From a virus: a stretch of 26,232 nt of DNA. The notes beneath the pieces are model-generated. The model made no database searches, was not told the DNA's origin, and was given only the letters and a program-made list of their open reading frames with translations. A program made the position numbers and the translations under genes. Positions 7,250 through 24,678 of the stretch are shown here, piece after piece; positions within the stretch are counted from its first letter, which is position 1, and every line of letters begins with the position of its first letter. Location of the stretch: IMG/VR virus record IMGVR_UViG_3300037349_000092, positions 1-26,232 of that record, one strand, 5' to 3'.

Positions 7250-9409
7250 CTATGTTGGGCTGGCGCTTAGCGTGATGGGCGTCGTCGTGGCGGCGAGCGG
7301 ATAGTTGATATTCCACGCGCTGCCGAGATCGCCACCGATGTCCCAACCGGCTGGCTTCGCCACGCTGGCGAAATTGTCGGTGACAGCGTTGCCGCGTCCC
7401 ATGTCGCCCCGATACGAAGGCGCTCCGGTCGGCGTGTAGGAGCCATAAGGATAGAACAGCAGGCACGCCGCTGCGGCATTCACCACAGCCTGCGACAAGG
7501 TGATTCGCAGGTGCGTCGCATCCACCCGCGCGCACGCCGTCGCCGGCACCAGCGTTCCGGGGCTGGCGACCGATCCGCCGTCCATCACCAGGAACCCCTG
7601 CCCGACCGCCGCCAGCAAGGGAACGACCAGGTCGTTCCCGGCGTCATGCGTCACGGTCAGAATGACCGTGGTGGCGTTCTGCAGGTACGCGTGCGTGATC
7701 GACGGGCCACCGGCCACGGGCAGGCCCGACGGTATCGCGGTAAACCCCCCGTCGCCCCAGCCGGTCGCATACAACGCTCGGGCGACCAACGGCGCAGCCC
7801 GCCACGCGAAGATGACGTTATCCCCGCCGTCGCGGTGCTGATTGTCGCCGCCGGTCTGGATGCCCGTGGACGGGTCCCAGGTCGCACCGCGGCTGTTGCT
7901 ATCCGCCGTCATCGGGTTGCTCAGCACGACGCCCTGCGTTGGATCCGCTGCGAGGCTGGCAATGACCTCGCGGTGCATCTGGATTCCAGAGGTGAACCCG
8001 AACGGAATCGCGTTCCACCAGCACACCGGCATGTTGGCTGCGGTCGCGCCGGCCACCATGCCGCGCAACAGACTGATCCACCGCTTCGCCGCGTGCTGGA
8101 AGGTGGTCCACTCCGAATAGGGCCGGTAGCTGTCCGTCTCCGACCACAGCAGCATCAGCGCCGCGATGTCGGACTGATCGTCGGAGGCCTGTTCCGCGAT
8201 ATAGGCCGCGACGTTGTTGCCCATCTTGCCGAGCGACCAGCCGCTCGGGTCCGATCCATCGCCCGGATCGACCAGGAAGGATGACGCATAGGTCGGCACG
8301 CCGGAGATCGGAAAATTGTAAATCCCGATACCGGGGTCGATCGTGCCAGGTCCGCCGCTGTTTTGCGTGTTGCCGACAAAGCCGTAGGCGCTCGCTCCGA
8401 GATACCACGCCACGCCCTTTGCCAGCATCGCGGCAGCGCCGTCCGCCAGCGTGTAGTTCGCAGCGTTCGACTGCCCGTTCATCACGAGCTGCACGCCCTT
8501 GCGAGGCCCCAGCGCCCAGCGCGCGGCGTAGGCAGCCAGGCCGGTGATCGAGGCTCCCGAGATCGCGCTTTCCCAGGTCGCGAATTCATGCAGCCAGCAC
8601 TGCGCGCCGGCCTGGTAGCCGTTCCCCCCGTGCAGCAGCAGCAGCGTGGCGATGCCGGTTCCGGCAATCGGGTTGGCGACGTTCGTCGCCACCTTCGCGC
8701 CATCGAGCCAGGCCGAGACGCCGCTCCCCGGCACATTCTGGAGAATCACCGAATGCGTGTGCCGCCGCGCCAGCGACGACGACAGCACCGCCGCCGCGCT
8801 GTTCGGGAACAGGATCAGCCGGCTCGTGCCGGCCGAGCCATCCGCCTGCAAGATTGGCGTCCCGCCCGCCGACAGCAGCACGTTGGCCGAGCTGTCAACG
8901 ACCGGAGGCGGGTACACGTTGGTGCGCCAGTTCGGGCGGGTCCAGACGAAATAGCGGGTCCATGAAGCTGTCGCGCCCATCGCCACACCCGGCAGTTGCC
9001 AGCCAAGGTTTTGATCGAGGGCCGGATAGGTCGGGCCGGCCGACAGGTCGAACCCGGCTCCCCCCAGCAGGCCGGACAGGCGCGGCGTCGCCATCGGCTG
9101 ATTCACGCTGCCGGAGCCATAGGAATACTTCGTCATCCCGATCAGGTGGCCCGACAGGTCCGCCAGGCTGACGATCGGCAGGTTCCAACCCGACAGCGGA
9201 TTGCCGTTGGCATCGGTCGCGTTGTTGAACGTCGACGCATCCCACCAGCCCGACAGGCCCGCGATCGCGCCCGGCGCAATCGCGCCGCTGCCGCCAGAGC
9301 CGCCGCCAGGCCCCGCACCGCCCGAACTGGTGCGCAGCGGCGTCCAGAGTGCCGCCCGGCCTGGCGCGACCAGCGCGGCGCGACCGGGCCGTGAAAACAG
9401 GACGGCCAT
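7250..9409 (-). CDS. Virion host-interaction protein: LamG-like domain plus SGNH/SASA-type esterase
   Basis: This is a 719-residue protein. After a Gly-rich linker (30-45), residues about 48-300 form a concanavalin/LamG-like sandwich: GLSGWWDAST at 51-60 and SVILQNVPGSGVSAWLDGAK at 220-239. Residues about 306-550 are an SGNH hydrolase. NGQSN at 311-315 gives the nucleophile Ser314, LLWSETD at 420-426 fits the WxExD block, and DNQHRDGGD at 522-530 supplies Asp522 and His525. The closest known style is the SASA/sialate O-acetylesterase family. It would remove acyl groups from surface polysaccharide during adsorption. Residues 560-719 look like a beta-rich C-terminal binding domain. It starts 2 bases after the FN3 gene. 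The exact substrate is unknown. Confidence 0.75.
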   Translation of the reverse strand: MAVLFSRPGRAALVAPGRAALWTPLRTSSGGAGPGGGSGGSGAIAPGAIAGLSGWWDASTFNNATDANGNPLSGWNLPIVSLADLSGHLIGMTKYSYGSGSVNQPMATPRLSGLLGGAGFDLSAGPTYPALDQNLGWQLPGVAMGATASWTRYFVWTRPNWRTNVYPPPVVDSSANVLLSAGGTPILQADGSAGTSRLILFPNSAAAVLSSSLARRHTHSVILQNVPGSGVSAWLDGAKVATNVANPIAGTGIATLLLLHGGNGYQAGAQCWLHEFATWESAISGASITGLAAYAARWALGPRKGVQLVMNGQSNAANYTLADGAAAMLAKGVAWYLGASAYGFVGNTQNSGGPGTIDPGIGIYNFPISGVPTYASSFLVDPGDGSDPSGWSLGKMGNNVAAYIAEQASDDQSDIAALMLLWSETDSYRPYSEWTTFQHAAKRWISLLRGMVAGATAANMPVCWWNAIPFGFTSGIQMHREVIASLAADPTQGVVLSNPMTADSNSRGATWDPSTGIQTGGDNQHRDGGDNVIFAWRAAPLVARALYATGWGDGGFTAIPSGLPVAGGPSITHAYLQNATTVILTVTHDAGNDLVVPLLAAVGQGFLVMDGGSVASPGTLVPATACARVDATHLRITLSQAVVNAAAACLLFYPYGSYTPTGAPSYRGDMGRGNAVTDNFASVAKPAGWDIGGDLGSAWNINYPLAATTTPITLSASPT

Positions 9410-18633: not shown

Positions 18634-20352
18634 TTAGCCTCCGACAATTAACAGGCCGCGGCCGTCGCCATAAATACCCGTTGGCTCGGCCATCGAGCGG
18701 CCCACCGCCATGATCGCCGCGACGATCGGGTCGATGCGCTCGATCGAGCGTTCCTTGTCCGGCTTGACGTTGCCGGCGGGGTCGGTGCGGATCGAGACAT
18801 TCGAGGCGCACCAGTCCGAAACCGGATCGCCGCCATGCTGCAACTCACGCGCCAACACCTTGCGCATGAACTCGGCTGCCGCCGGCCCCATGCTGAGAAA
18901 GCCCTGCCCGAACTCGACCAGGTTCATGCCTTCGTCCGCCAGGTTGCGGATGATCTCGCCGGCGAACGTGCGGTCAAACGCCAGTTCGGTGATGTCATAG
19001 ATGCCGGCGAGTTTAAGGATCGCCGCCTCGACAAACTTGAAGTCCGTCGTGTTGCCTTCGGTCGCGATCAAATGGCCCTGGTCGCGCCAGACCTGGTAGG
19101 GCGCGCGGTCGCGCCGCGACCGTTCTTCGATGTTGTCGGCCGGGCACCAGTGCCGCCACAGCAGTTTCCACTTCTCCCCGTCACTCACCGGGGGAAACAG
19201 CAGCGCCAGCGACGACAGGTCGTTGATCCGCGCCAGGTCGAGGCCCGCGAGGCACCTCCGGCCCCGCAGCGCCTCCGCGTCGATCGGCGCGGCCCCGTCC
19301 GCCCAGACCTCCATCGGGATCCAGCGCACAAGCTGCTGGGTCCACTGATTGAGCCGCAGGCGCCGGATGGAGTTCTGCCGCGTCGGCATCTCCAGCGCGA
19401 GCGCGACCTCCGCGCGCAGGTCCTCGATCTGGAGGACAACGCCGAGCGAGGGGTTGGCCTTGCGCCAGGCCAGTTCGTCTTGCCAGTCGTCGCCTTCGTC
19501 AACGGTCGCGACGTAGGCGAACCACCGATCCGCGGTCACCAGAGGGATCACGCCCTCCAGGACCTTTGCCGAGAAATCCCAATGCAGGTAGCAGACCGAA
19601 GTCCGGCTCACGCCCGCCGTCGTGGTTTCGTACATCAGCGGCTGGAGCCGCGCGCCCATCCCGGTGTCGAGTTTCTCGATCACGCCGGCGTCGGGATGCT
19701 CGTGCAGTTCGTCCACCAGCGCGACGAACACGTTCAAGCCGTCCATGGTCGACGTGTCGGCCGAGAGCGGCCGGAACCACGATGCGGTCGGCAGGACCGC
19801 CAGGTTGTTCGTCGTCTTGACGATCCGCCGGCGCAGCGCCGGCGAGCCCGCCCGCATGCGCTCCGCTTCGGTGAACACGATCCGGGCCTGATCGCGCGTC
19901 GTCGCGGCCGAGTAGATTTCCGCGCCAGGCTCGCCTTCGTCTATCAGCGCCTTGAGGCCGATGCCTGCCTCAATGGTCGATTTGCCGTTTTTCCGCGCGG
20001 TGGACACGAACGCCGTGCGGAAGCGCCTGACCTCGATCTTCTTGTCCGGCAGCAGCAGCTTCCAGCCGAAGATCGAGCCAACGACGAATTGTTCCCATTC
20101 GAGCAGGTTGAACGGCTGGCCCGCGTATTGCCCCTTGCTGTGACGCAGCACGGCCGGAAAGAAATCAATCGCCCGCTGGGCCGTCTCCCGGTCCCAGCGC
20201 AGGCCCCGCGCCGGCCCGTCAACCAGGTCGCGCAGGTGGCGCTCGCAAGCGAGGCGAACCAGGCGGCCGGTGACCACCTTGTTCTCGACCACCGCCCGGG
20301 CGTACGCCTCGACAGTGTCTTGCGGCTTCGCCCGCCGCCTACGCCCTGCCAC
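18634..20352 (-). CDS. terL: Large terminase subunit (ATPase-nuclease)
   Basis: This 572-residue protein contains a Walker A-like TARKNGKST at 118-126 and a Walker B VALVDELHEH at 210-219 with catalytic Glu215. A C-terminal RNase H-like nuclease shows Asp372 (GLDLA), Asp460 (LAFDR) and Asp541 (IDPIVAAI). It matches the HK97/P27-partner TerL family and is full length. It drives ATP-dependent DNA packaging and cuts the concatemer. The start is GTG at 20352, overlapping the small terminase by 14 bases. The protease ATG follows its stop by 7 bases. Confidence 0.93.
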   Translation of the reverse strand: MAGRRRRAKPQDTVEAYARAVVENKVVTGRLVRLACERHLRDLVDGPARGLRWDRETAQRAIDFFPAVLRHSKGQYAGQPFNLLEWEQFVVGSIFGWKLLLPDKKIEVRRFRTAFVSTARKNGKSTIEAGIGLKALIDEGEPGAEIYSAATTRDQARIVFTEAERMRAGSPALRRRIVKTTNNLAVLPTASWFRPLSADTSTMDGLNVFVALVDELHEHPDAGVIEKLDTGMGARLQPLMYETTTAGVSRTSVCYLHWDFSAKVLEGVIPLVTADRWFAYVATVDEGDDWQDELAWRKANPSLGVVLQIEDLRAEVALALEMPTRQNSIRRLRLNQWTQQLVRWIPMEVWADGAAPIDAEALRGRRCLAGLDLARINDLSSLALLFPPVSDGEKWKLLWRHWCPADNIEERSRRDRAPYQVWRDQGHLIATEGNTTDFKFVEAAILKLAGIYDITELAFDRTFAGEIIRNLADEGMNLVEFGQGFLSMGPAAAEFMRKVLARELQHGGDPVSDWCASNVSIRTDPAGNVKPDKERSIERIDPIVAAIMAVGRSMAEPTGIYGDGRGLLIVGG

Positions 20353-20803
20353 GCAAGAAGTCTTCGGCCGGGTCGGATGGCGGCGCCACCTCCGCAGCCT
20401 TGATTCGCGATCGCGCCGAGCCGGACAGCCCGATCTGCTCGGCGCACTGGCGCAACTGCTCCATCGCCCGGTTCGCGATCGTCAGGTAAGGCGAGTAGAT
20501 CGGCAAACCGTTTGGCGAGCGCAGGATCATCCCCTTGCTCGTGACCTCGCGCTCGCACTCGATCCACCTCGCCCACGCAACGCAGTAGCTGGCGACGATT
20601 GCCAGGTCGAGCTTTGTCATCAGCCCGGCCTCGGCCAGCAGGCGCGTGATGCGCCGCCATTCCTTGAGTGCGTCGCCGTTCAGATGCGCCGGCGGCGGCG
20701 GCACCGCCGGGGCAACCTTCGCCTCCCGGTCATTGAGCGGCCGGCGCCCCGGATTCCCGGTTACCAGCTTCAAGTGTGTCGGCGTTGGCTTGCGGCCCTT
20801 CAT
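20339..20803 (-). CDS. terS: Small terminase subunit (P27 family)
   Basis: The protein has 154 residues from the ATG at 20803, with GGAAGG 5 bases upstream. The opening MKGRKPTPTHLKLVTGNPG and the following PPPPAHLNGDALKEWRRI are the P27 family signature. A helical middle and a C-terminal AVASYC-type region follow (LDLAIVASYCVAWARWIE). It recognises the packaging site and recruits TerL. Its start lies 74 bases inside the 3' end of the ParB-like gene, a longer overlap than at most junctions here. Confidence 0.88.
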   Translation of the reverse strand: MKGRKPTPTHLKLVTGNPGRRPLNDREAKVAPAVPPPPAHLNGDALKEWRRITRLLAEAGLMTKLDLAIVASYCVAWARWIECEREVTSKGMILRSPNGLPIYSPYLTIANRAMEQLRQCAEQIGLSGSARSRIKAAEVAPPSDPAEDFLRGRA

Positions 20804-21521
20804 GTGGCCCTTCCAAAGCGGCAAAATGCGCCAGCGCGATGTCGATCATCCGAGTCAAAACCGCTCCGATCGCCCGCACGTTCTCGATCTTCGTGATGGT
20901 TCCGACCGCCTCGGCAAAGCGCGGATAGATGTCGGCCGACGCGACGCCCACCAGGTCGGTGTCCTTCGGTATCTTCTTGATCTGCGCTTCCAGCAGTTCA
21001 AATTTCTCGATCGCTGCCGGTAGGAACGCGAAGTGTACGAGATACCACGGCAGGATGGCCGCGATCGGCGGGATCGAAATGCTGTCAGCCGAGGCGATGT
21101 CACCGAAGTCCGCCGCGGTCACGTAGGACTCTAGGATGTCGTCAATCCGGCTGATCTCCTTGAACAGCGTCGCGAGCGTCTCCCGATCGTCGCTGCCGGC
21201 GATGCGGTTGTGCGCGATCTGCTTCGCAACCACCTGGGAGCGGGTCAGGTTCCGCGTGTCGGCCAGCACGTACAGTTCGGTAAGCCCGGCCATGCGCACC
21301 GCCCGGGTGCGATGGTGGCCCGACATGACCTCAAAGAAGTTCTTGCGTTTAACAGTGAGAGGCAGGCTTTCGAGGCGTTGTTCCTTGCGGATGGTGTCAG
21401 CCAGCCGCTCCAGCATTTCCGGCGGCATGACGCGCGCGTTCACGTCCTGCTCGCGGAGTTCCTCGGGATGAACCTTCCAAATCTCCAGGTTCGGCCCGAC
21501 CGCCGCTATGAACTCCGCCAT
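20730..21521 (-). CDS. ParB/sulfiredoxin-fold domain protein
   Basis: The protein has 263 residues from the ATG at 21521, with AGAGG 6 bases upstream. Residues about 12-115 form a ParB-type N-terminal domain: the opening IWKVHPEELREQDVNARVM, then LADTIRKEQRLESLPLTV, then EVMSGHHRTRAVRMAG at 64-79, where ParB has its conserved GxxR-type nucleotide-binding turn. Residues 100-135 are helical (QIAHNRIAGSDDRETLATLF) and the rest is alpha-helical with no clear HTH. Such phage proteins often accompany DNA-modifying enzymes and terminases; known members bind CTP or act as nuclease or kinase variants. The modification enzyme gene precedes it with a 125-base overlap. Precise activity is unknown. Confidence 0.75.
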   Translation of the reverse strand: MAEFIAAVGPNLEIWKVHPEELREQDVNARVMPPEMLERLADTIRKEQRLESLPLTVKRKNFFEVMSGHHRTRAVRMAGLTELYVLADTRNLTRSQVVAKQIAHNRIAGSDDRETLATLFKEISRIDDILESYVTAADFGDIASADSISIPPIAAILPWYLVHFAFLPAAIEKFELLEAQIKKIPKDTDLVGVASADIYPRFAEAVGTITKIENVRAIGAVLTRMIDIALAHFAALEGPHEGPQANADTLEAGNRESGAPAAQ

Positions 21522-22938
21522 CAAATTCCTCTCGGGCGCGTGGCGCCACCTTGCCGTCTTTGTTGAGCCACTCGGCAACCCGGTCGGCAAAGCTGCGGTC
21601 AGGGAACGGCGCCGCATAGACCAGCTTGAACCGGCCATCCGGCATCTTCGTTCGCTCGCGCAGTTTCAGGATGCCCCGGTCGGTTTTGACCTCCGGGTGC
21701 GGCGCGATGCAGGTTGTTTGCAGACTGCTCACGGATCGCAGCGGGTTCCTGACCATCGACCGGAAATAGGCCCGCGCGTCACCACTCACCAGCAACATCA
21801 TAAACAAGCGGCTCAGTCTCGCATGAACCGCGTTCGGCACGGTGAAGCCGAAGGTTTCATGCACGATCTCGGACACGCCGCGCTCGACCTGATCGAAGAA
21901 CACGCCGAACACGCTCATCAGGTGACCGTCGAGCAGCACGAGGAAATACCGCTCGGCCCGCGTCACGCCGAGCTTGTGCGCGAACAGGTCGCGATAGTAC
22001 AGCGCGCACGACTTGCTCGTTTCAACGAACCGCACCACGGTATCCGCGGTCACCGCCCGGTCATTCGGCCAGAGGGGAAACTCCGAAGGCCCGAGCTTGG
22101 TTTCCCGGCGCGTGTGGACGCCCTTGGGCAAGCCCTCCGGCCGGTTCGCCAGCCAATAATGCGGGACCTTCCGGTTCGGCGCCCACTCGCTGAAAATCGC
22201 GCGATCGGCGCCATCCTCCGGCAACTCGCCATAGAACGCCCACACCGCCAGCGCGGCGCCATCGCGCAGCATATCGTACAACTTCGGCTGCAAGGCGGGA
22301 TCGAACTGCGGGACCTTCGGCTCGCTCCAGGCGATGCGACCCTCGACCGGGAACATACGGTCATAGCCCTTGCGGTAGGCCGGTGGGAAAAGGCAGATCG
22401 CCGCGTGCGGATCGTCAATCCCCTGCTTGATCTGCGCCCACATATCCTCGATCTCGAAGGTGCAGCCGTCCAACGCGGTCACCCTCGCGTCGATCTGTTC
22501 CTGGAGTGCAGACGCCGCGCGTTCCCAATCGGAGGTGATGTCCTCCAACAGCAGCCGCGTGTACTGGCTTTCGGTTTTGTATTGGCACGCCTTGATCGCA
22601 GCGAGCGCCGCGCCCGCCTCGATCTTCGTGCCGGCGAACGCCGCCGCCGGCGCCAGCCGTTCGTCCAGGTAGCGGATGCCGAGGTCGGCAAGCGGCCGTC
22701 CGGCGATCGACGTGCCGATGATCGCGGAGACCAGGCCGGTATCGCCGGTGATGATCTTCGAGGGATCGAAGCCGGCGGACACCGCGGCCTGGGCGAGTCC
22801 GAACACGCCGGCGCACGGGTTGATGAACCGGGTGACGCCAAGCTCCCGGGATCGCCGGAGCGCACCGACGAGGAACTTCGCAGCCGGCGCCTTCAGTCCG
22901 CCCTTGAACAGCACGCCGGTAAATGTGTCGAGTTTCAA
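21397..22938 (-). CDS. Putative DNA-modification enzyme: methyltransferase-like N-terminus, Mom-like C-terminus
   Basis: This is a 513-residue protein. Residues 38-57 (FINPCAGVFGLAQAAVSAGF) resemble an AdoMet-binding motif I. ICLFPPAYRKGYDRMF at 181-196 resembles the (D/N)PPY catalytic motif of adenine methyltransferases but reads FPPAY. Residues about 300-445 (CALYYRDLFAHKLGVTRAER; YFLVLLDGHLMSVFGVF; SLQTTCIAPHP; RGILKLRERT; FKLVYAAPFP) resemble the GNAT-like Mom adenine-hypermodification family and phage proteins annotated as antirestriction adenine methyltransferases. It would modify phage DNA to evade restriction. The start is TTG at 22938 after a G-rich site. The last 41 residues overlap the ParB gene and look non-conserved. 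The family assignment is by recognition only. Confidence 0.6.
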   Translation of the reverse strand: MKLDTFTGVLFKGGLKAPAAKFLVGALRRSRELGVTRFINPCAGVFGLAQAAVSAGFDPSKIITGDTGLVSAIIGTSIAGRPLADLGIRYLDERLAPAAAFAGTKIEAGAALAAIKACQYKTESQYTRLLLEDITSDWERAASALQEQIDARVTALDGCTFEIEDMWAQIKQGIDDPHAAICLFPPAYRKGYDRMFPVEGRIAWSEPKVPQFDPALQPKLYDMLRDGAALAVWAFYGELPEDGADRAIFSEWAPNRKVPHYWLANRPEGLPKGVHTRRETKLGPSEFPLWPNDRAVTADTVVRFVETSKSCALYYRDLFAHKLGVTRAERYFLVLLDGHLMSVFGVFFDQVERGVSEIVHETFGFTVPNAVHARLSRLFMMLLVSGDARAYFRSMVRNPLRSVSSLQTTCIAPHPEVKTDRGILKLRERTKMPDGRFKLVYAAPFPDRSFADRVAEWLNKDGKVAPRAREEFDGGVHSGGRAEPGDLEGSSRGTPRAGRERARHAAGNAGAAG

Positions 22939-23234: not shown

Positions 23235-23843
23235 ATGCAACCGACTCTCATAAAAACCTCGGCCTGGGGCACCCAACTGCCCGAGGATCATCTGCGGGTC
23301 AGCATCTCGCGTGGCACGCCACGCCGGACGCCGGCCGGCTTCCGGGTGTATCGCGCGCTGGCGCCCGGACCCTGGTTCAACAAGGTCGGCACGGACGAAT
23401 ACTGCCGGCTCTACGCCGAGGAGATCCTCGCGCCGCTCGACCCGCGGCTGGTGGCCGACGCGCTGGTCTGCCTCGGCGACGGCCGCGTGCCGGTGCTGCT
23501 GTGCTTCGAGCGCCCCAACACCGGCAAGTGGTGTCATCGGGCACTGGTGGCCGAGTGGCTGGCCAAGGCCACCGGCCGCCCGGTCCCCGAGTTCGGCTTC
23601 GAGGCGTTGCCGCAGCACGAGCATCCGCTCCTGCCACCGGGCCATCCTCGCCTCGCCTTCCCAACCGCCATCCCCAGCCCGGAGATCGAAGCGTTTGCCG
23701 GTCGGACAGCGACGATCGACGGCGAGTTGCACCGGGTTGTCGGAGCGGACCCCGACCAGCCAGGCCGGGCAATCATCGCCGCCGGCGATCGGCGTTTCTC
23801 GACCAGCCTCGACACGCTGCACCGGCAGTTCGCCAAGCCCTGA
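23235..23843 (+). CDS. DUF488 family protein
   Basis: The protein has 202 residues from the ATG at 23235, with AAGG 8 bases upstream. It shows the DUF488 pattern: VSISRGTPRR near residue 23, then YRALAPGPWFNK at 39-50, YAEEILAPLDP, and VLLCFERPNTGKWCHRALVA at 87-106 with Cys90, Glu92, Cys100 and His101. The biochemical role of DUF488 is not established. The last 70 residues (PEIEAFAGRTATIDGELHRV) extend beyond the usual domain. It is the first gene of the rightward block. A longer reading from 23115 adds 40 residues of non-coding appearance upstream of the probable promoter. Confidence 0.75.
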   Translation: MQPTLIKTSAWGTQLPEDHLRVSISRGTPRRTPAGFRVYRALAPGPWFNKVGTDEYCRLYAEEILAPLDPRLVADALVCLGDGRVPVLLCFERPNTGKWCHRALVAEWLAKATGRPVPEFGFEALPQHEHPLLPPGHPRLAFPTAIPSPEIEAFAGRTATIDGELHRVVGADPDQPGRAIIAAGDRRFSTSLDTLHRQFAKP

Positions 23844-23855
23844 CTGCCAACCCCA

Positions 23856-23865
23856 TCCTGCCACG
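23856..23865 (+). promoter_or_regulatory. Leader motif TCCTGCCACG (copy 2 of 3)
   Basis: TCCTGCCACG followed by GA lies 12 bases before the ATG at 23878. Other copies are at 23091-23100 and 25824-25833, each 12-15 bases before an ATG. The CACGGA end may serve as the ribosome binding site. The conserved upstream part suggests a shared translation-control or regulator site. Confidence 0.45.
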
Positions 23866-23877
23866 GAGATTACGAAA

Positions 23878-24678
23878 ATGTCTGCCAACACCCGGAGCGC
23901 CGGCCGCACCCAAGCGGACCGGCGAGCGGATCGCCAGGACCGGATCGACAGCCGGTCCGATCGGCTCACCGCCGAAGCCACCAGTCAATTCCGCCGCGCC
24001 GACCAGATTTCGGAGCGGTTCTACGGGGGCCAGCCCATCCTGGTCGGCCATCACAGCGAGAAAGGCGCGCGGCGCGATCAGGCCAAGATGCACAACGCGA
24101 TGCGCAAGGGCATCGAGTTGAAAGATGCCGCCGCCGAGATCGCCTCGGTCACACCGTCAACCGCCGTGCTGGCCACCGACTCAGACGGCATCGAGATCAT
24201 GCAGGCCAGGCTCGCGAAGGCCGAGGCGAAGCAGGCCGAATACAAGGCGATCAATGCCCTCGTGCGCAAAGGCGACCGCGCTGCCCTGGCGGCGATGGGG
24301 CTTGGCGCGGCAACGATCGTGGAACTGTTCAAGCCCCAATGGGGCGAGCGCGGTCCGATCGGATTGCCCTCCTACTTGCTGTCCAACAATAGCGCCAACA
24401 TTCGCCGCATGCGGCTGCGGGTGGCGGAACTCGAACGCGCGACGGAACTGCAATTCAAAGAGCGCATGGTCGGCGACGTGCGTGTTGTCGAGGACCCGGA
24501 CACGATGCGGATTCAGCTTCATTTCCCCGGCAAGCCTTCGCCGGCGGTGATCGCCCTCCTGAAAGGCCACGCCTTCCGCTGGGCGCCGTCCGAGCGGGCG
24601 TGGCAGCGGCAACTGAACGGCAGCGGCCGCATGCACACCGACCTCGTGCTGCACGCCATCGAAAACGCGGGAGGCTGA
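23878..24678 (+). CDS. DUF3560 domain protein
   Basis: The protein has 266 residues from the ATG at 23878, with CGGAG upstream. The DUF3560 signature is clear: RSDRLTAEATSQFRRAD at 26-42 and GGQPILVGHHSEKGARRD at 50-67. A C-terminal region contains AFRWAPSERAWQRQLN, a segment often seen in phage and plasmid proteins of this kind. DUF3560 has no known activity; it is common on mobile elements. It is likely co-transcribed with the DUF488 gene and two small genes downstream, spaced by 1-34 bases. Confidence 0.8.
   Translation: MSANTRSAGRTQADRRADRQDRIDSRSDRLTAEATSQFRRADQISERFYGGQPILVGHHSEKGARRDQAKMHNAMRKGIELKDAAAEIASVTPSTAVLATDSDGIEIMQARLAKAEAKQAEYKAINALVRKGDRAALAAMGLGAATIVELFKPQWGERGPIGLPSYLLSNNSANIRRMRLRVAELERATELQFKERMVGDVRVVEDPDTMRIQLHFPGKPSPAVIALLKGHAFRWAPSERAWQRQLNGSGRMHTDLVLHAIENAGG

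Follow-up and report, generated by a model that had tools for sequence, protein, structure and literature searches.

What does a phage do with a single protein that joins a methyltransferase-like fold to an acetyltransferase-like one, encoded beside a ParB-fold gene with the terminase genes close by? The question is raised by a viral contig of 26,232 nucleotides (IMG/VR record IMGVR_UViG_3300037349_000092), the whole of which we call the window. A sequence-only reading of this DNA had proposed a two-part protein of 513 residues that would belong to a DNA modification system. The underlying observation is confirmed: the open reading frame starts with a TTG codon and is intact over its full length, and both of its Pfam domains score far over the cut-off of 27 bits, DAM-like-phage1 (PF22555) with 110.2 bits (1.4e-31) and GNAT-phage-like (PF22559) with 84.4 bits (1e-23). 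PHROG 7858, whose function is given as unknown, spans both domains (9.1e-50). The features are collected in Table 1. An identical protein is found in other IMG/VR contigs, at full length in three (L002-L004) and in part in a fourth (L005).

Table 1. Features of the locus in the window (domain and motif limits also given as residues of the fusion protein)
Feature	Position	Strand	Basis and remarks
DAM-like/GNAT fusion protein, 513 aa	21397..22938	-	PF22555 and PF22559; PHROG 7858
DAM-like domain, residues 11-266, Dam/D12 fold	22141..22908	-	PF22555, Foldseek and motif alignment
Motif-I-like loop NPCAGVFG, residues 40-47	22798..22821	-	Alignment; C42, G44 and F46 conserved in family
Motif-IV-like FPPAY, residues 184-188	22375..22389	-	Alignment; family consensus [N/F]PPTY
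GNAT/Mom-like domain, residues 300-461	21556..22041	-	PF22559 and hhalign to Mom family
ParB/sulfiredoxin-fold partner, 263 aa, SGHHR motif	20730..21521	-	PHROG 7405; 125-nt overlap with fusion gene
DUF488-N3a partner, about 202 aa, CxE...CHR motif	23235..23843	+	PHROG 2450; PF22751 1.8e-6; divergent from fusion gene
Terminase small subunit, neighbour outside module	20339..20803	-	PF05119 2.8e-26
Terminase large subunit, neighbour outside module	18634..20352	-	PF20441, PF03354

The family as such is already recognised, as its domains are listed in Pfam and PHROG. PHROG 7858 proteins that carry the DAM-like-phage1 and GNAT-phage-like domains, such as that of Faecalibacterium phage FP_Brigit, are homologous to the window protein along its whole length, arrange the two domains alike and have a ParB-fold neighbour; the divergence of the window protein leaves about 30% identity or less. 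GenBank records name the fusion protein hypothetical or methyltransferase, and NCBIfam holds no model. A literature search found no paper on the module and no experiment, nor any carrier whose DNA had been measured as modified. Three points rest on the tests described below: the conservation of three genes together, an Asn/Phe switch in the methyltransferase-like half, and a specific link of the other half to Mom.

The structure of the fusion protein was predicted by AlphaFold with 51 relatives, giving a mean pLDDT of 90.4. Among solved structures, the best Foldseek match to this model was E. coli Dam in complex with AdoMet and DNA (4rtp; E 1.6e-5, probability 1.00, TM-score 0.47 by target length), followed by acetyl-CoA GNATs. 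Among viral models (BFVD), the matches were adenine methyltransferases, many GNATs and phage Mom; the Mom of Salmonella phage FSL SP-031 (S4TTR0) ranked 23rd with an E-value of 9e-4. By fold (4rtp), the DAM-like half thus belongs with the Dam/D12 adenine methyltransferases, with which it also shares a motif order: an EPxxG loop, an acidic residue after strand 2, a long recognition segment and a PPY-type motif. When the protein is aligned with the Dam enzymes of E. coli and T4, NPCAGVFG falls on the EPFVGAGS loop, and the counterpart of DPPY is FPPAY. The FxGxG motif I and DPPY motif IV typical of Dam/D12 enzymes are thus themselves absent from the fusion protein, the family having CxGxF for the former and FPPAY or NPPTY for the latter. 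Profile searches contributed little on this half: Pfam D12 did not match the fusion protein at E<=10, an hhalign comparison against a Dam profile of two sequences only was too weak to score, and a scan of viral sequences for Dam relatives found none.

The changed DPPY motif had been read as special to the window protein, and the family does not bear this out. Among 40 non-redundant relatives, the first residue of the PPxY motif is only ever Asn or Phe, and the family tree falls into two strongly supported halves, one with each residue. Phe at position 184 is therefore normal in half of the family, which the earlier reading had overlooked, and the family alignment and tree together led us to reject FPPAY as a degenerate one-off. 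The window protein carries F184 yet pairs with one contig (L032) on the Asn side of the tree, which implies at least two changes at this position. C42, G44, F46, D66, P186, Y188 and E193 are conserved in both halves. Because the Asn/Phe changes repeat while these residues stay fixed, what is seen at position 184 resembles recurrent functional switching more than decay. Two irregular copies of the gene were also seen: in one contig (L084:1937-3340) it is broken into two open reading frames between the Dam-like and GNAT halves, and in another (L059:7911-12190) the fusion and ParB genes stand in tandem copies, the second fusion copy being shortened and having NAPGY in place of NPPTY.

One could read the switch as a divide in catalysis. 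The Dam-like half of the NPPTY clade would then be an active SAM-dependent transferase that places a methyl or larger SAM-derived group on adenine N6, the GNAT half would decorate the product, and the first step would be altered or lost in FPPTY and FPPAY members, the window included. NPP members do keep the Asn of amino-methyltransferases. A SAM synthetase gene, found upstream of the module in FP_Brigit and several Asn-clade records (at about 2-4 kb in some NPP members), occurs in 6/36 NPP-side records and 0/14 F-clade records, although this contrast falls short of significance (Fisher p of about 0.2, an estimate and not a tool-computed value) and the phages are related. The Gly pattern of motif I is altered to CxGxF in both clades, however, and both keep the same module; we regard such a divide as unlikely.

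The C-terminal half had been described as Mom-like, with the resemblance placed at residues 300-445. Foldseek and profile-profile comparison both uphold a GNAT/Mom likeness there. When 40 members of the fusion family were compared with 12 Mom proteins by hhalign, the GNAT half matched the Mom family with a score of 42.5 (P 6e-6) over 76 columns. In controls, none of 40 column-shuffled profiles scored above 16.0 and reversing the profile gave 16.1, while a profile of twenty ordinary GNATs scored 20.8 against the fusion family (P 0.02) and 18.3 against Mom. The GNAT half is therefore nearer to Mom than to ordinary GNATs. The match came with the deeper alignment, a shallower one of four sequences having given none.

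Kinship is not identity, and the stronger claim of a Mom enzyme does not stand. The Mom profile PF25680, which detects Mu Mom itself at 2e-75, did not match the fusion protein at E<=10. In the alignments, the Mom signatures HY, S(F/Y)AD and YxAxNF are absent from the fusion family, and of ELxR only the Arg has a counterpart. Plain membership of the Mom family was rejected on these grounds. The canonical GNAT pyrophosphate-loop pattern [QR]xxGx[GA] occurs in 0/40 relatives, which leaves the use of acyl-CoA by this half unproven; Mom proteins mostly lack the pattern too.

GNATs mostly act on proteins, tRNA or metabolites, and the fusion protein might likewise modify such a host substrate, its Dam-like half serving as a scaffold. 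In F-clade members the GNAT half (for example L008:8832-9338) also matches PHROG 2443, annotated as an amidoligase enzyme, though these matches take in just the C-terminus of the profile; the fusion protein as a whole is matched best in structure by A0A8S5SJK3, a viral model of 695 aa named amidoligase. Amidoligase PF12224 as a partner was found in 0/50 records, in a search that gave no positive anywhere. The specific kinship to Mom over generic GNATs, together with the fusion to a DNA-methylase fold and the ParB-fold partner, makes a host substrate very improbable.

The ParB-fold gene and the terminase genes that follow it lie as the sequence-only reading had them. The partner starts with an ATG at 21521 and matches PHROG 7405 at 8e-50. 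Pfam ParB_N stays under its cut-off (19.6 bits against 26.3), and the fold is nonetheless recovered by structure (7bnr, E 1.4e-6) and by a profile match (2e-7); the model resembles CTP-binding ParB, sulfiredoxin and serine kinase. The GERR motif of the partition-ParB CTPase is absent from the partner family, with an SGHHR-type motif at the same place. This gene is a near-constant companion, lying directly downstream and on the same strand in 109 of 113 family ORFs; the four exceptions are two contig ends, one half of a split gene and one truncated copy (L060). Querying 50,697 phage records with the ParB protein returned 16 from cultured phages (8 Mycobacterium, 5 Gordonia, 2 Faecalibacterium and 1 Microbacterium), the same set of organisms as the fusion-protein query. 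DndB and DpdB are ParB-fold proteins of DNA modification systems. Like them and the ParB-methyltransferase fusions of PHROG 498, the window partner places a ParB/Srx fold beside a DNA-modifying enzyme; it differs in being a separate gene, in its partner enzyme and in having SGHHR for the CTPase GERR.

A third partner, overlooked by the earlier reading, was exposed by a count of neighbouring genes. Upstream of the fusion gene lies a DUF488-N3a gene (PF22751, 28.7 bits against a cut-off of 27), present in 44/50 module records and in 0/37 control records of Mom, Mu and T4 type. Of 47 non-redundant groups whose upstream sequence extends for 3 kb or more, 44 have it. Across 46 relatives its Cys and CHR never vary, and its orientation is inverted in the window, as in five other groups. 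Also in the window, an open reading frame at 23311-24678 (+) carries a DUF3560 domain and resembles PHROG 6744 as well as a primase family, and a 719-residue protein near the tail sheath gene (7250-9409, -) had no Pfam or PHROG match.

The neighbourhood invites another explanation, in which the module is a DNA-end processing or packaging mark and not a base modifier, with DUF488 as an end-processing enzyme and the ParB-fold protein as a binder of DNA sites. Such a role would account for the terminase genes next door; 33 of 59 non-redundant groups have a gene for the terminase small subunit at about +1.8 kb. The rhodanese-phosphatase superfamily was surveyed in 2023 by Burroughs and Aravind, who probably covered these loci and reportedly predicted DNA-end processing for DUF488 relatives. 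Mycobacterium phage Argie, however, has no packaging gene within 8 kb on either side of its module, and the kinship to both Mom and Dam indicates base chemistry, so that we consider an end-processing role improbable.

Taken together, the Pfam domains, the structural matches to Dam and GNATs, the kinship to Mom and the co-conservation of the ParB and DUF488 genes across phages make it probable that the locus is a module of three or more phage genes for the hypermodification of DNA bases. The modification system first suggested, a fused methyltransferase-like and Mom-like protein with a ParB-fold partner almost always adjacent, thus remains plausible. ParB/Srx proteins such as DndB have been noted in DNA modification, and published work treats the Mom reaction as acyl transfer to adenine N6 (PMC7824862, PMC12839542). 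We infer a scheme in which the Dam-like half would bind DNA and hold a flipped base, probably adenine. The Mom-like GNAT half would then pass a small group of acyl type either to this base directly or to an arm attached beforehand. The ParB-fold protein may load the complex on DNA or regulate it there, and a cysteine-based step may come from the DUF488-N3a protein. The outcome would be phage DNA shielded from host restriction before packaging. In a bolder version, which is possible but doubtful, hypermodification would proceed in two steps, the Dam-like half putting a SAM-derived group on adenine and the GNAT half acylating it, with DUF488 and the ParB-fold protein adding chemistry and DNA loading; the resulting base would be one undescribed in any phage. 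Counts of four-letter palindromes yielded nothing useful.

Among the closest known systems, the phage Mu Mom (PF25680) that carries out adenine carbamoylmethylation shares with the GNAT half its fold and the profile similarity over 76 columns. That short span counts against the hypermodification reading, as do the missing pyrophosphate-loop pattern and the literature search that found no modified carrier DNA. So does Mu Mom itself, which needs neither a Dam-like domain nor a DUF488 partner, both of which accompany the Mom-like domain here. Independent support for the proposed mechanism comes from true Mom genes (PF25680) that directly follow ParB_N genes, as in Microbacterium phage Appa (L122:2469-3621) and Arthrobacter phage Sicarius2 (L128:1408-2564), much as the fusion genes adjoin a ParB-fold gene. 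In Alsa_4, a true Mom gene adjoins a DNA methylase gene.

Relatives are found in many viral contigs and in actinobacterial phages, and also in contigs from genomes of Clostridia, Negativicutes, Desulfovibrio and Synergistales. The module is probably a way of chemically disguising phage DNA, and as such a candidate disguise system whose carriers range from phages of Clostridia to those of Actinobacteria and other groups. Some carriers are grown on Mycobacterium smegmatis (phages Argie, Jeon and Megabear, on strain mc2 155) or Gordonia (phage Sting), so that the modified base can be sought directly. The pairing of Mom and ParB_N genes in Appa and Sicarius2 merits a survey of its own. If the hypermodification reading is true, Mom gains a relative that carries its own domain for reading DNA and works with defined partners.
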